Source of the DNA: Weissella bombi
GTDB lineage: Bacteria > Bacillota > Bacilli > Lactobacillales > Lactobacillaceae
Reading direction: 5' to 3'
Length of the DNA stretch: 64,000 nucleotides
Assembly (NCBI RefSeq): GCF_900094835.1
Contig: NZ_FMAO01000004.1
Location: 1-64,000, forward strand
The number at the start of each line of letters is the position of its first letter. The stretch's first letter is position 1. A program made the position numbers and the translations under genes. Shown here in pieces: positions 18,880 through 26,505 of this stretch. The notes under the pieces are model-generated. The model made no database searches. It had not been told where the DNA came from and saw only the letters and a list, made by a program, of their open reading frames with translations.

Positions 18880-18913
18880 AGGTTGGAACAAAAGAAATTG
18901 TTCCAACCTTTTT
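18880..18913 (+). terminator. Terminator of the 18582 membrane protein gene
   Basis: Stem AGGTTGGAACAA/TTGTTCCAACCT, 6-nt loop, then TTTTT. Confidence 0.9.
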
Positions 18914-18955
18914 AGTTCAAAATGCATTAATTATAAACCTGTAAGTTTTATAACA

Positions 18956-19040
18956 TAAACGCGTTTCAAAAGTCTGAAGCCTCAATATTGCTGCAATCAC
19001 GTTACACACCGGCTTCAAAACGACTTTTGGAACGCTCTCT
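18956..19040 (-). repeat. Structured 3'-UTR element, copy A (AGAGCG...CGCGTTTA family)
   Basis: On the minus strand the element begins AGAGAGCG six nt after the stop of the HerA-like gene and ends CGCGTTTA. Inside, GCGTTCCAAAAGTC (19022-19035) pairs with GACTTTTGAAACGC (18961-18974) with one G-T. After a GTTTT bulge, GAAGCC (19011-19016) pairs with GGCTTC (18976-18981). Ends and architecture match the two units at 21473-21725, although the stem sequences differ. Confidence 0.7.
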
Positions 19041-19046
19041 TTTCTA

Positions 19047-20234
19047 TTATCTTAAAAAAAACTTAGGTGTTGCTGTTTGATGATTCATTTCAGGTACCAT
19101 CTGTATATTTATCAATTGCGGTGTCGCAAAATTATTACCGGCTAACAATGCTTGACCAATAGTTTCATGAACGATTTGCTGCTCATATGATTGTAATACT
19201 GGTAATTGCGCCAATTCACTAGCCGTGTTCAATTGATGTACAAGATAATGACCAAATTGTCCTAATAACTTTGGGTCAATATCTAAAGGACTCTGCGTTG
19301 TTAACATTAGAAACAACCCCAATTTACGTCCTTCACGCGCAATTCTAAAAATGCCCGTCGTCTCTAGATTATCGGCCATTAAATATCGATGTGCTTCATC
19401 AATTAATAAAGTTACTGGAACACTACGCCTTAATTGCTGCTTTTCTCGTAAAAGCGCCATCGTTAGCAAAGATACCAGAACCTTCCCTATAGCTAGGTTA
19501 TCAGCAAACAAGGAGCAATCAATCACTAAAATTTTATGATCACTTTGATGGCTTGCAAACAAACGCAACAAATACATAACATCCGTCTGCATATCCGTCG
19601 TTTCAATTTTAGAATCTGACGTCATCGGCATATGAAATAGTTGTTGAAAACGGTTTTGACTTGTTAATCGTTTAATTCGTCGAATTAATGGTAAACATTT
19701 TCTAAATCCTACTTCATCAATTTCTTGACCAATTAAATCAAAATTGTCCACCGGGACTGCAAATTCTTGGCGTAATTGTTCAGGTAATAGTGACAGATCA
19801 ACTGGTTGTGGATATTGATACAATCGTTGCATATCATGTTCGAAATCTTGCCATGTCCGATTTAGCTTAGCATATATACCAGGTTGACCAATGATATTTT
19901 TTTGTAGCTTTAAACTCGTCAAAGCATCGGTCAACTTTTCTTGCATATCCGTATCAGTCACACCAAACAGTAAATTAAGATCATCCCCCGTTAGTTGTTC
20001 ATAATCAATGTAGGCATTATAACCAAGCTTTGCAACTACTGCATTTGGTAAATGTTCATACTCACCTGTTGGGTCAATAATCATCGTCGTTTGATTAGCC
20101 TCCATCAACCCATGTAATATCGTCATCGCACTTGTTGACTTACCGCTACCCGTTGCCCCTAAAATCAATAAATGTTGCTGTAACAAATCATCAGCCGAGA
20201 CCGTTAACTGATCTGATAATGGTATCGAAATCAT
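19047..20234 (-). CDS. HerA/DUF87-type P-loop ATPase
   Basis: A 395-residue additional-strand P-loop ATPase with Walker A GATGSGKST (residues 26-34), IDPTGEYEHL and Walker B VTLLIDEAHRYL, followed by GRKLGLFLMLTTQSP. This is the HerA-FtsK pattern of hexameric DNA-pumping ATPases. The short N-terminal strand before Walker A resembles a reduced HAS-barrel. The NurA nuclease, the usual partner of HerA, is not nearby; the only neighbour is a three-helix membrane protein 21 bp upstream. A role in DNA handling or defence is inference. Confidence 0.75.
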   Translation of the reverse strand: MISIPLSDQLTVSADDLLQQHLLILGATGSGKSTSAMTILHGLMEANQTTMIIDPTGEYEHLPNAVVAKLGYNAYIDYEQLTGDDLNLLFGVTDTDMQEKLTDALTSLKLQKNIIGQPGIYAKLNRTWQDFEHDMQRLYQYPQPVDLSLLPEQLRQEFAVPVDNFDLIGQEIDEVGFRKCLPLIRRIKRLTSQNRFQQLFHMPMTSDSKIETTDMQTDVMYLLRLFASHQSDHKILVIDCSLFADNLAIGKVLVSLLTMALLREKQQLRRSVPVTLLIDEAHRYLMADNLETTGIFRIAREGRKLGLFLMLTTQSPLDIDPKLLGQFGHYLVHQLNTASELAQLPVLQSYEQQIVHETIGQALLAGNNFATPQLINIQMVPEMNHQTATPKFFLR

Positions 20235-20255
20235 ATTTTCACCTTCTTCGATTAG

Positions 20256-20498
20256 TTAGATTAAACGGATAATATCCCAAATCACATTTAAAAGCCAAAT
20301 TCCTGACGTTGCAATAAACAACCACTTTATTTTATCTCGTGTACCAAAAATTGCTAATGCAAATAAAAGCATAAGAATCAAATGATACCAAATTACGTGT
20401 GGGGTAAAAACGTCAAACAATGAATAAATCCCTAAAAGAATCATCATCACACCAACTAATATCAATACCCCATTACTAAAAATGCGTTTCTTTTTCAA
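20256..20498 (-). CDS. Small membrane protein upstream of the HerA-like gene
   Basis: An 80-residue protein with a basic start (MKKKR) and three predicted membrane helices (about 8-28, 37-49, 57-80). It is transcribed 21 bp ahead of the HerA-like ATPase and probably cotranscribed with it. No family recognised. Confidence 0.6.
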   Translation of the reverse strand: MKKKRIFSNGVLILVGVMMILLGIYSLFDVFTPHVIWYHLILMLLFALAIFGTRDKIKWLFIATSGIWLLNVIWDIIRLI

Positions 20499-20628
20499 GT
20501 TGCTTACTCCTCATATAAAATCATTAGTTATATGTTACCTTTTGTTAGCATATAATGCGATAGAAATCGCTTGCAAATTTACAGTTTAAATGCGAAAGTA
20601 GTGTTAGATTATTAAGGAGGATGTATTT

Positions 20629-21468
20629 ATGTCAATTCCAGAAGTCACATTAAATGATGGTCACAAATTACCTAGCTTAGGTTTAGGAACTTATCAATTA
20701 AAAGGTGGTTCAGGACTACAACAAGTTCTAGCTGCTATTAAGAGCGGTTACCGTCTAATTGATTCTGCTACCAATTACGACAACGAAGGAATCGTTGGTA
20801 AAGCTATTCGCATGTCTGGCGTACCTCGTGCAGAGTTCTTTGTAACATCTAAGTTACCTGGTAAGTATCATGATTACGAAAGCGCTCGTGATGCTATTCA
20901 AGAGTCACTAGCTCGTATGGGACTGGATTATTTTGATCTATTCATCATTCACTGGCCATTGCCAAAGCGTGGTCTATACGTTGAAGCATGGCAAGCCTTA
21001 GTTGATGCACAAAAGCAAGGTTTGATTCGTTCAATTGGTGTTTCAAACTTTGAGCCTGAGCATCTAGATCGTATTATTGAAAAAACTGGGGTTACACCTG
21101 CCGTTAACCAAATCGAGGTTCACCCATACTGGGTCCAAGAAGAAAACCTTTTGGAAAACTTGCGTCGTGGTATCAAAGTTGAAGCATGGAGTCCTCTAGG
21201 CCGTGGTAGCTCTGCATTAAAGGAACCTGTTGTACAAGAAATTGCTGACAAGTACGGTAAGTCAACAAGCCAAATTATCACCCGTTGGCACCTTGACCGT
21301 GGTATTATTCCTGTTTTGCGTTCATCAAATCCAGCTCACCAACGTGAAAACCTTGATGTGTTTGATTTTGAACTAACAAACAGCGAAATTGCCGCTATCA
21401 ATGAACTAAACCGTGAAGACGGTCGTATTGATGGTCAAGACCCAAACGAGTATGAGGAATTTGAGTAA
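20629..21468 (+). CDS. Aldo/keto reductase (2,5-diketo-gluconate reductase-like)
   Basis: A 279-residue (beta/alpha)8 NADPH oxidoreductase. Catalytic tetrad segments are LIDSATNYDNE (Asp, Tyr), VTSKLPG (Lys) and LFIIHWPLP (His). The C-terminal VLRSSNPAHQRENLDVFDF binds the NADPH phosphate. AAGGAGG lies before the ATG. The stop codon is followed 4 nt later by the tandem structured repeats and then a strong terminator, so the transcript probably carries them as its 3' UTR. The physiological substrate is unknown. Confidence 0.88.
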   Translation: MSIPEVTLNDGHKLPSLGLGTYQLKGGSGLQQVLAAIKSGYRLIDSATNYDNEGIVGKAIRMSGVPRAEFFVTSKLPGKYHDYESARDAIQESLARMGLDYFDLFIIHWPLPKRGLYVEAWQALVDAQKQGLIRSIGVSNFEPEHLDRIIEKTGVTPAVNQIEVHPYWVQEENLLENLRRGIKVEAWSPLGRGSSALKEPVVQEIADKYGKSTSQIITRWHLDRGIIPVLRSSNPAHQRENLDVFDFELTNSEIAAINELNREDGRIDGQDPNEYEEFE

Positions 21469-21472
21469 AAAC

Positions 21473-21602
21473 AGAGCGGATATAATTTTCGTTTTGACAG
21501 GTGATATAAGACATAAACATGGTGTATTCGCCGTAGCGACTGCGAAGGCATTGCACCGTGTTTGTGGCTTATATTACCTGGATTGAAAATTTATCGCGTT
21601 TA
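21473..21602 (+). repeat. Structured 3'-UTR element, copy B1
   Basis: It starts AGAGCG 4 nt after the aldo/keto reductase stop and ends CGCGTTTA. The outer stem is GCGGATATAATTTTC with GAAAATTTATCGCG. After a GTTTTGAC bulge a 26-nt arm (21499-21524) pairs with 21555-21580, mostly Watson-Crick with G-U wobbles that suit plus-strand RNA. The loop holds TTCGC/GCGAA. The wobbles and bulge suggest selection for RNA structure. Confidence 0.75.
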
Positions 21603-21605
21603 AAC

Positions 21606-21725
21606 AGAGCGTTGCCAATCTGCGGGTTACATTCCGGTATAAGGCCTGTTTTGTGCCCTGACACTGCAAGTGTCTGGGTCAAAATTGGACTTATATAAGG
21701 AATGTTGTTGATTGGTGCGCGTTTA
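21606..21725 (+). repeat. Structured 3'-UTR element, copy B2
   Basis: It begins AGAGCG and ends CGCGTTTA, 3 nt after copy B1. The nested stems are GCCAATC/GATTGG, CATTCC/GGAATG, TATAAG/CTTATA, and a terminal hairpin TTTTG..CCC.GACACT-gca-AGTGTC.GGG.CAAAA. Stem sequences differ from copies A and B1, but the ends and order of parts are kept. Confidence 0.75.
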
Positions 21726-21728
21726 CTC

Positions 21729-21757
21729 AGAGCGGATATAACTACCGTTTTGCAGTC
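21729..21757 (+). repeat. Truncated third copy of the structured element
   Basis: It begins AGAGCGGATATAA exactly as copy B1, followed by the CGTTTTG bulge motif. No 3' arm or CGCGTTTA end follows; the transcription terminator lies there instead. It is read as a 5' remnant of a unit. Confidence 0.6.
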
Positions 21758-21763
21758 TAAAAT

Positions 21764-21809
21764 AAAAGCCAATGGCGAGATGCTTATCACATCTTCCATT
21801 GGCTTTTTT
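21764..21809. terminator. Bidirectional terminator between aldo/keto reductase and udg
   Basis: AAAAGCCAATGG (21764-21775) pairs with CCATTGGCTTTT (21796-21807), with an inner AGATG/CATCT stem, and T-runs or A-runs on both sides. It ends the plus-strand repeat-bearing transcript and the minus-strand glycosylase gene. Confidence 0.85.
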
Positions 21810-25045: not shown

Positions 25046-25365
25046 CAACAATTAAATTTCGTCCCAAACCGTTGAAGTGGAGGTCAAGATTATCGTGCAC
25101 GCAAAGAGAGTTGCAGTTGGTGGAAGTGCAACCGAACGCAGATAATTAAATGGACCACTGAGGGCTTTTCTGAAAGACTTTTTTATTAAGAAGAGACGTG
25201 ATGGCATACGTAAGTTGTCGGGAGGATGTTAGTCCTTCGCTAAGCGTAATTAGTTGTCCTATTAATTTGAATGACATAAGTTTATTTATCTGGGCAATTA
25301 ATTAAATTAAGGTGGCACCACGGAAAATCCGTCCTTAACTGTTTACTGTTTTGGACGGATTTTTT
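25046..25365 (+). promoter_or_regulatory. T-box riboswitch, tryptophan specifier
   Basis: The leader contains the T-box sequence AAGGTGGCACCACGG (25309-25323), followed by terminator stem AAATCCGTCC/GGACGGATTT (25325-25334 with 25353-25362) and a T-run. Stem I is closed by AGTGG/CCACT and carries the AGAGAG and GGTGGAAGTGC elements. The specifier loop reads AA-TGG-ACCACTG, with TGG at 25151-25153, the Trp codon. Uncharged tRNA-Trp would stabilise the antiterminator and turn on trpDCFBA. Confidence 0.92.
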
Positions 25366-25479: not shown

Positions 25480-26505
25480 ATGATTAAAGAAAGCACGCAA
25501 AAATTAGTTAACCAAAAAGATTTAACTATTTCAGAAATACAATTTGTTTTTGATGAAATTATGAATGGTAATACTTCGGAAATTGAAACAGCCGGTTTCT
25601 TAACTGCATTAGCAGCGAAAAAACCAACTATTGAAGAAATTACCGGCGCAGCAACATATATGCAAAAACATGCAGAAGCATTTCCAAAAGTAGATGATGT
25701 TTTAGAAATCGTTGGTACTGGTGGTGACCATGCTAATACCTTTAATATCTCAACAATAAGTGTCATTGTTGCAGCAGGAACTGGTACAAAAGTAGTAAAA
25801 CATGGTAATCGTGCTGCTTCCTCTAAAAGTGGTGCTGCAGATTTGATTGAAGGATTAGGCTTAATCCTTAATACTAGTCCCGCTAAAAGCTTTGAATGCC
25901 TGCACAAAAATAATATGGCCTTCTTGTTTGCTCAAGAATATCATAAGTCTATGAAAAACGTGGCCAATGTTAGAAAGCAACTCGGCTTTCGCACAATTTT
26001 TAACATTCTCGGACCCTTACTTAACCCAGCTCACCCAGCCTTTCAATTGCTAGGTGTATATGATGAAACTTTACTAGAACCCCTCGCAAACGTTCTTTTA
26101 AATCTTGGTGTAGAAAATGCCATGGTCGTCCATGGGCATGATGGACTGGATGAAATTTCAACTACTGGTGAAACATCAGTTATCGAACTCCATGATAAAC
26201 AATTATCACAATACATTTTGACGCCTGAACAATTTAATTTACACCGTAGTCAACCAAGTGATTTAGTTGGTGGTACACCAGAACAAAACGTTCAAATTAC
26301 CTATGATATTTTAAATGGCACCCAAGGGCCCCAGCGTGATATTGTTCTTTTAAATACTGGTGCCGCCTTACATCTAGCTCATCCAGAATTAAGTATTCAA
26401 GATGGTATCAACCTTGCAGCACAAACAATCGATGATGGTAAGGCTCGTAATGAACTTGATAAACTCATTGCATTTGCAAATAGTGAAGGAGGCGTAGTCG
26501 CATGA
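25480..26505 (+). CDS. trpD: Anthranilate phosphoribosyltransferase
   Basis: Transfers phosphoribose from PRPP to anthranilate, the second step of tryptophan synthesis. The 341 residues match the family. Motifs [17 protein letters not shown] (PRPP/Mg site) and [19 protein letters not shown] are clear. AAAGGA lies 8 nt before the ATG. It is the first complete gene of the operon and overlaps trpC by 4 nt. Anthranilate synthase (trpE/trpG) is absent upstream, so substrate must come from another locus or from outside. Confidence 0.96.

Follow-up and report, generated by a model that had tools for sequence, protein, structure and literature searches.

Miniature palindromic repeats that flank bacterial genes, such as EFAR, bcr1, ERIC, and NEMIS, have already been described (PMC3733652). 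EFAR is named among the miniature inverted-repeat transposable elements (MITEs) of Enterococci (PMC3733652), and the Efa-1 family, 163 bp long with 65 copies, each a pair of adjacent stem-loops (PMC2267715), is possibly the same as EFAR. In Bacillus cereus, a repeat lying within a transcript, especially bcr3, correlates with mRNA half-life, but bcr1 does not (PMC3446304). We analyzed 64,000 nt of Weissella bombi DNA (contig NZ_FMAO01000004.1, positions 1 to 64,000; hereafter the window), in which a preliminary description made from the letters alone had reported long hairpins with shared ends, placed right after stop codons and assigned to no known class. The hairpins are of the sort just described, so the class is not wholly unknown.

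EFAR of Enterococcus faecalis is probably the nearest described element, compared here by its description and not by sequence. The EFAR repeats of Venditti and colleagues (2007) reportedly have a variable, modular length, most being ~170 bp, and are said to use short stem-loops as targets. ERIC, NEMIS, and RUP are defined by sequence consensus, and the attC sites of integrons have conserved ends, extrahelical features, and a stem kept by structure. The hairpins of the window belong to a family that is dispersed and multicopy across Lactobacillales, with empty and filled sites, and unit content, varying between related species. The family is probably a mobile, non-coding, MITE-like repeat that requires a folded single strand for its propagation.

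Results

Conserved fold and folding strand

The architecture is one long imperfect hairpin of ~115–131 nt, to which type I copies often add a tail of ~45 nt and a terminator-like hairpin. Unit length ranges from 70 to 139 nt, with most units at 115–134 nt. What is conserved is a grammar and not the stems: a start AGAG-YG, a 5′ bulge of ~4 nt, and a CRCGTTTA-like end. At their first four positions, 200 distinct units have A in 190, G in 193, A in 190, and G in 195 cases, and the three bases preceding the last are T in 197, 200, and 193. The ends had been called fixed, but across the family they vary (position 5: C in 123, T in 70; last base: A in 158, C in 23, T in 16, G in 3). Positions 15–27 carry a YGNYYW motif in 98/108 Weissella units, 52/65 units of other Lactobacillaceae, and 26/27 units of other families.

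In an alignment of 50 units on one strand (A8), which was fitted to our covariance model R1 and hence favors the model structure, 94.4% of the cells are paired, compared with 56.7% after shuffling and 36–46% after sliding, and 39 of the 42 pairs carry compensatory changes with both sides altered. The values of an earlier count, in which two of the 55 rows were second-strand readings, were 94.1% and again 39 of 42. In the MAFFT alignment of 23 Weissella units (A1), 24 of 45 pairs change on both sides, in 60 cells vs. 14.4 in shuffles. The preliminary claim that the helices differ in sequence between copies yet stay complementary within each is upheld on these larger alignments. The chance resemblance that it had allowed for is contradicted by the many copies, with compensatory changes, that covariance models find in related genomes.

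For 141 units we aligned one arm with the other in a strand-neutral way and counted the G-U and A-C oppositions. G-U was found 891 times and A-C 62 times (14-fold), G-U being in the majority in 139 units and A-C in one, with one tie; therefore, the AGAG...TTTA strand is the folding strand. The G-U:A-C ratio is 18–20 in Weissella and 5–7 elsewhere. The remark that the G-U pairs suit one strand is supported. Units in antisense and sense arrays show an equal excess (20:1 vs. 18:1 in Weissella). No promoter was seen before the 35 antisense Weissella arrays (mean z = 0.09 in the direction of the element and 1.1 in the opposite direction).

Pair-keeping changes are common among shared variants. In 93 type I units from Weissella and Ligilactobacillus, with each variant counted once, single-copy (private) variants comprise 9 G-U, 9 compensated, 14 A-C, 43 other single mismatches, and 4 double mismatches, and variants in at least three copies comprise 16 G-U, 18 compensated, 2 A-C, 5 other single mismatches, and 1 double mismatch. 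Private and shared variants differ significantly (Fisher test: P = 1.2e-6 for G-U against A-C plus other; P = 0.0015 against A-C alone), and a smaller variant count gave the same picture. This points to a filter that acts when copies are made. A comparison of orthologous arrays yielded 240 pair-keeping vs. 137 pair-breaking differences, the unit comparisons being non-independent.

Distribution of the family

Pattern searches revealed more copies in the source genome (G000; 1.82 Mb, 29 contigs) and a conserved tip, CCGTAGC-NNN-GCGAAGG. None of the Rfam 15 families reached its gathering score over the hairpins, the window yielding just a T-box and tRNA; at a low threshold there were sub-threshold matches alone, chiefly to microRNA precursors. 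R1, built from 23 units and with 122 candidates scored per Weissella genome, matches 8 of 28 Weissella genomes (G017: 67, G024: 56, G012: 55, G000: 25, G019: 13, G021: 6, G022: 5, G010: 1), these counts including second-strand matches of the same palindrome. A census of 75 stretches, chosen around listed R1 matches, together with the window gave 109 unit places in 88 arrays of one to four units, with 19 distinct units from G000. With 8 candidates scored per genome, R1 matches 61 of 397 Lactobacillaceae genomes (the 8 Weissella included) in 16 of 40 genera, and 20 stretches outside Weissella have the same sort of ends and bulge with quite different stems.

With a broader covariance model, R2, matches were obtained in 86 of 395 Lactobacillales genomes, spread over 34 of the 80 genera. 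We surveyed copies in 40 chosen genomes, 36 with and 4 without an R1 match, scoring 89 candidates in each: 37 match, 15 of them with 85–89 matches and 6 with at least 89. The R1-negative genomes G015, G026, and G028 have zero and G031 has 2. Match counts exceed copy counts, since 43 of 62 matches in the 33 loci read are units and the remainder are second-strand. Among genomes of other families picked for a match, R2 matches 30/30, with 1 to 92 matches each. In a sample of 398 Bacilli genomes, which includes Lactobacillales genomes without an R2 match, R2 matches the source genome and four others, all four outside Lactobacillales, with weak scores, a similar bulge, and different ends. Weak hairpin relatives were seen in G860 (L339 and L341, 1501–1619), behind what we take to be the 3′ end of 23S rRNA. 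Type I copies close to the Weissella ones occur in the genomes G396 and G410 (L044, 5119–5249, on a contig named as Candidatus Ligilactobacillus excrementavium; L186, 1929–2059; and L363), and represent either transfer between genera or contamination.

Queried with one Weissella unit, blastn matched none of 72,556 plasmid records and none of 50,697 phage records. The two-unit Lactobacillaceae stretch L173 matched three plasmid records solely in the inter-unit spacer, and no phage; unit L167 had no plasmid match. The three-unit Enterococcaceae stretch L310 matched 65 plasmid records (51 Enterococcus, 12 Lactococcus) at 60–80% identity. On an Enterococcus lactis plasmid, a polysaccharide deacetylase gene ends where the array starts, the element's own AG completing the TAG stop codon. 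R2 fails to recover the degenerate units on this plasmid, its sole match there (17.9 bits) being a hairpin behind the array, and the array is assigned to the family, as a candidate member, by its ends and by 74% blastn identity to the L310 units.

The tip was rejected as a hallmark of the family: the loose pattern CCGTAGC-N-GCGAAGG occurs in 78/108 Weissella units, 7/65 units of other Lactobacillaceae, and 2/27 units of other families. The tip-plus-end pattern in named genomes gave 23 stretches, 15 from Weissella and 1 from Ligilactobacillus; the remaining 7 (Selenomonadales, three from a proteobacterial bin, Opitutales, Flavobacterium, and Pontiellaceae) were excluded as members. L045, L047, and L051 (Opitutales, Flavobacterium, and Pontiellaceae) have the same tip within unrelated stems and fail on other family features. 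L039, L043, and L052, from the one proteobacterial bin, are three similar copies of another repeat with the tip, running into ...CGCGTTTATCGAGGGCC. The literature searched, in which subscription papers are thinly covered, holds no account of the family in Weissella or Lactobacillus.

Genomic sites and arrays

Most units lie at a stop codon or adjoin a terminator. Sites were counted with a simple open reading frame (ORF) caller, with repeats kept in. Sense arrays start within 40 nt of a stop codon in 46/52 cases in Weissella, 36/47 in other Lactobacillaceae, and 9/12 in other families. A distance of −2, at which the element's AG completes a TAG stop codon, is the most frequent one in other Lactobacillaceae (10/47). 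The view of a small, duplicating structured element, often right after stop codons, is consistent with these counts, but not that of an element of the 3′ untranslated region (3′-UTR) only, because 35/88 Weissella arrays and 23/85 arrays outside Weissella (duplicates among the 85 kept) are antisense to the upstream gene. A convergent gene lies downstream of 66/88 Weissella arrays, and 4/88 lie in divergent gaps, vs. 40 divergent gaps among the 181 of at least 120 nt in the same stretches.

Units are single or in arrays of two to five, with 3-nt spacers that are array-specific. Spacer 3-mers within an array are identical in 22/40 comparisons (4.7% expected), and the 3-mer of the left flank equals that of the spacer in 17/65 (2.9% expected). 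The last unit is followed by a 5′ partial unit in 32/87 Weissella arrays (12/15 of the multi-unit arrays), compared with 0/787 control windows, and in 6/16 arrays of other families. A solo partial was seen at L006.

An array in the window lies behind an aldo/keto reductase gene that has matches in 15 of 28 Weissella genomes (E ≤ 1e-80), the downstream region being readable in 11. In G023, G003, G004, G027, and G013 the site has no array, and the stop codon is followed within ~4 nt by a terminator-like hairpin; G021 likewise has no array. The filled sites read II-III-II′ partial in G000 and in G017, II-II′ partial in G019, II′-II′ partial in G022, and II′-II-III-II′ partial in G012. At a second orthologous site, array contents again vary between species. 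Compared with G019 and G022, L092 is a clean insertion of a type I hairpin with its tail and terminator-like hairpin, and the empty site shows no evident stem-loop. Relatives carry a different native terminator at L094 and L102; at L090 and at the site of window position 18956, G019 keeps degraded type I copies; and at L096 the terminator is shared, preceded by a deleted copy in G024 and by no copy in G012.

The hairpins of the window

The window holds a two-unit array (21473–21725) with a 5′ partial behind it and a lone deleted unit on the minus strand (Table 1). The four pieces named in the preliminary description are where it placed them, and the three hairpins that it gave as full fold better as RNA than every one of 200 dinucleotide shuffles (21473–21602: −60.8 kcal/mol, z = −10.15; 21606–21725: −54.3 kcal/mol, z = −6.83; minus strand of 18956–19040: −29.3 kcal/mol, z = −3.86; 0/200 shuffles as good in each). 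The last of these is, however, no full unit; it is internally deleted, with 83 nt vs. ~131 for the commonest Weissella type. The remnant at 21729 is present, but an end at 21757 is too short, since it can be traced for ~37 nt, to ~21765, against a unit of L014. The start just behind stop codons was also correct: 4 nt at 21473, and on the minus strand 6 nt from the end at 19040 or 8 nt from the model end at 19038.

Table 1 Features of the Weissella bombi window
Feature	Position	Strand	Basis
Full type II unit; hairpin tip CCGTAGC-GACT-GCGAAGG with GNA/GNA internal loop	21473..21602	+	Fold, model R1 70.8 bits
Spacer AAC, 3 nt, identical to 21470–21472 left of the first unit	21603..21605	+	Sequence
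Full hairpin unit, type III, without GNA tip	21606..21725	+	Fold, model R1 33.8 bits, E 1.1e-5
5′ partial unit, type II′, terminator directly after	21729..21765	+	Comparison with complete unit of Weissella L014
Terminator-like hairpin and T-run 3′ of the array	21766..21809	+	Sequence
Aldo/keto reductase gene (function read by eye), stop codon ends 4 nt before the array	20629..21468	+	ORF
Hairpin unit, type I, internally deleted	18956..19038	−	Fold, model R1 68.8 bits
Tail TGTTATAAAACTTACAGGTTTATAATTAATGCATTTTGAACT, also behind other type I copies	18914..18955	−	Sequence comparison
GGTTGGAACA...TGTTCCAACC, terminator-like hairpin followed by a T-run, where the convergent gene ends	18881..18913	+	Pattern search
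P-loop ATPase gene (read by eye), stop codon 6–8 nt before the minus-strand unit	19047..20234	−	ORF

Type II units are found at the orthologous site in G019, G017, and G012, as at 21473, and type III units also occur in arrays of G019, G017, G012, and G024. The pattern GGTTGGAACA...TGTTCCAACC has one match in the window vs. 0 in 100 shuffles. Relatives of this terminator-like hairpin recur downstream of type I copies (L090–L102, L160–L162), and it may be part of the mobile unit or its own repeat family. The T-box leader (25063–25339, plus strand, 96.2 bits), upstream of a trpD-like ORF at 25480, is ordinary.

Discussion

Mechanism and competing explanations

If the family is a mobile, non-coding repeat, as we think probable, new copies would arise from a folded single strand, more likely RNA than single-stranded DNA in view of the strong preference for G-U over A-C, and a trans-acting enzyme would place them at gene ends. 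A unit and the 5′ partial behind it would form a direct repeat that lets arrays grow and shrink, recombination either deleting the unit to leave a solo partial, as at L006, or duplicating it. A sense-transcribed copy would become the 3′ end of the mRNA and probably alter its decay, which may explain why old arrays retain the fold; we favor such a putative secondary effect on mRNA 3′ ends. A more specific version, which we consider possible although doubtful, is that of an order-wide non-coding mobile element propagating as a folded single strand, probably RNA, with the fold inherited and the stems free, and with insertion at gene ends of a terminally redundant copy, a unit followed by a 5′ part, such as more than one turn around a circular template would yield.

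Several observations weigh against a mobile repeat that passes through a folded strand. Two-copy variants resemble private ones (5 G-U, 3 compensated, 5 A-C, 10 other, 2 double), and copies inherited at one and the same site are counted among the shared variants. The excess of pair-keeping differences between orthologous arrays points to constraint in place, partly at odds with how neutral the private type I changes look; long-resident arrays are therefore also kept, or converted by other copies, and gene conversion of this kind could mimic constraint in place. L092 is the one locus with a clean insertion, no clean target duplication was found at empty sites, and some sites differ across the whole terminator region. 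The 5′ partials are rare in other Lactobacillaceae (2/59), and alignments fitted to a model lean to it. No mobilizing enzyme is linked to the family: the Y1 transposase (PF01797), which alone was searched, is present in 3/28 Weissella genomes and missing from 7/8 carriers. With PF01797 in 1/8 carriers, mobilization by Y1/RAYT is disfavored.

A rival explanation is a host-serving 3′-UTR RNA element, in which the hairpin would stabilize or process the upstream mRNA and spread would be secondary. Sense arrays start at stop codons, the array occupies the gap between stop codon and terminator at the aldo/keto reductase gene in five species, orthologous arrays keep more pairs than they break, and the B. 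cereus repeats offer a parallel in the correlation of bcr3, but not bcr1, with mRNA half-life (PMC3446304). This explanation is nevertheless unlikely, given that 35/88 Weissella arrays are antisense, equal the sense arrays in G-U excess, and lack a promoter signal in the direction of the element, that unit content at one site varies between species, and that private type I changes mostly break pairs. Another rival is a DNA element recognized as folded single-stranded DNA, like attC or the ends of IS200/IS605, by a trans-acting recombinase; the conserved ends, one-sided bulge, strand-specific fold whatever the gene orientation, and array-specific 3-nt spacers agree with it. We hold such an element to be quite improbable, because on general knowledge RNA accounts better than DNA for G-U being 14 times as frequent as A-C, and because the Y1 transposase is missing from most Weissella carriers, integron integrases and other recombinases not having been searched for.

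Covariation could also arise without selection, by template switching within a hairpin that copies one arm onto the other, a process known as quasipalindrome correction. Many lactobacillar stems are nearly perfect, as it would leave them, but it would not favor G-U over A-C (891 vs. 62), and the one-sided bulge and GNA/GNA loop would be expected to disappear, so we regard it as very improbable.

Should the version with a folded strand and a terminally redundant copy be true, the family would be a mobile RNA element without its own enzyme, a bacterial counterpart of Alu- or retrozyme-like elements. If the probable reading as a mobile repeat is right, one family explains many intergenic hairpins in lactic acid bacteria and is a repeat with almost free sequence but inherited fold. 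Its copies would then be a natural system for asking whether mobility in bacteria can rest on a folded strand alone. Copies could pass for terminators or small RNAs, and 3′-UTRs could be changed at many genes. Covariance models detect copies where sequence search fails, as the blastn search of plasmids and phages with a Weissella unit did.

Comparison with known elements

Like EFAR, the present family is miniature, palindromic, and intergenic, and EFAR may prove to be a member of it. The two stem-loops and variable, modular length of EFAR find a match here in the type I hairpin, tail, and terminator-like hairpin, and in arrays of one to five units. EFAR differs in being known from one species by a sequence consensus, whereas the present family is definable mainly by its fold and ends, with stems nearly free and an order-wide range. 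As to a stem-loop target, L094 and L102 have a different native terminator in relatives, and none is evident at the empty site of L092. The family is short, non-coding, dispersed, and gene-adjacent, as MITEs are; the flank equals the spacer 3-mer more often than expected (17/65), as a target duplication might give, yet the empty sites show no clean duplication.

The repeats bcr1–bcr3 and other bcr repeats are likewise MITE-like and intergenic and often lie in transcript UTRs (PMC3446304), but they are known from the B. cereus group; the comparison here is by description. ERIC, NEMIS, and RUP, gene-flanking MITEs of 70–300 bp that fold when transcribed (PMC3733652), resemble the family in these respects; they differ in that whole stems of the present family change between copies. 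GTAG-tagged REPs with RAYT are also multicopy extragenic palindromes, often clustered, but they measure 20–40 bp and carry the GTAG tag (PMC3733652), as opposed to units of 70–139 nt with AGAG/TTTA ends here, and the Y1 transposase is absent from nearly all Weissella carriers. The L. johnsonii family Lac-1 was rejected as a relative, as it lies in coding sequence (PMC2267715).

Conserved ends, extrahelical features, and a structure-kept stem are common to the family and to attC. The present arrays differ in having no cassette genes between units, and R′/R″ boxes are not evident.

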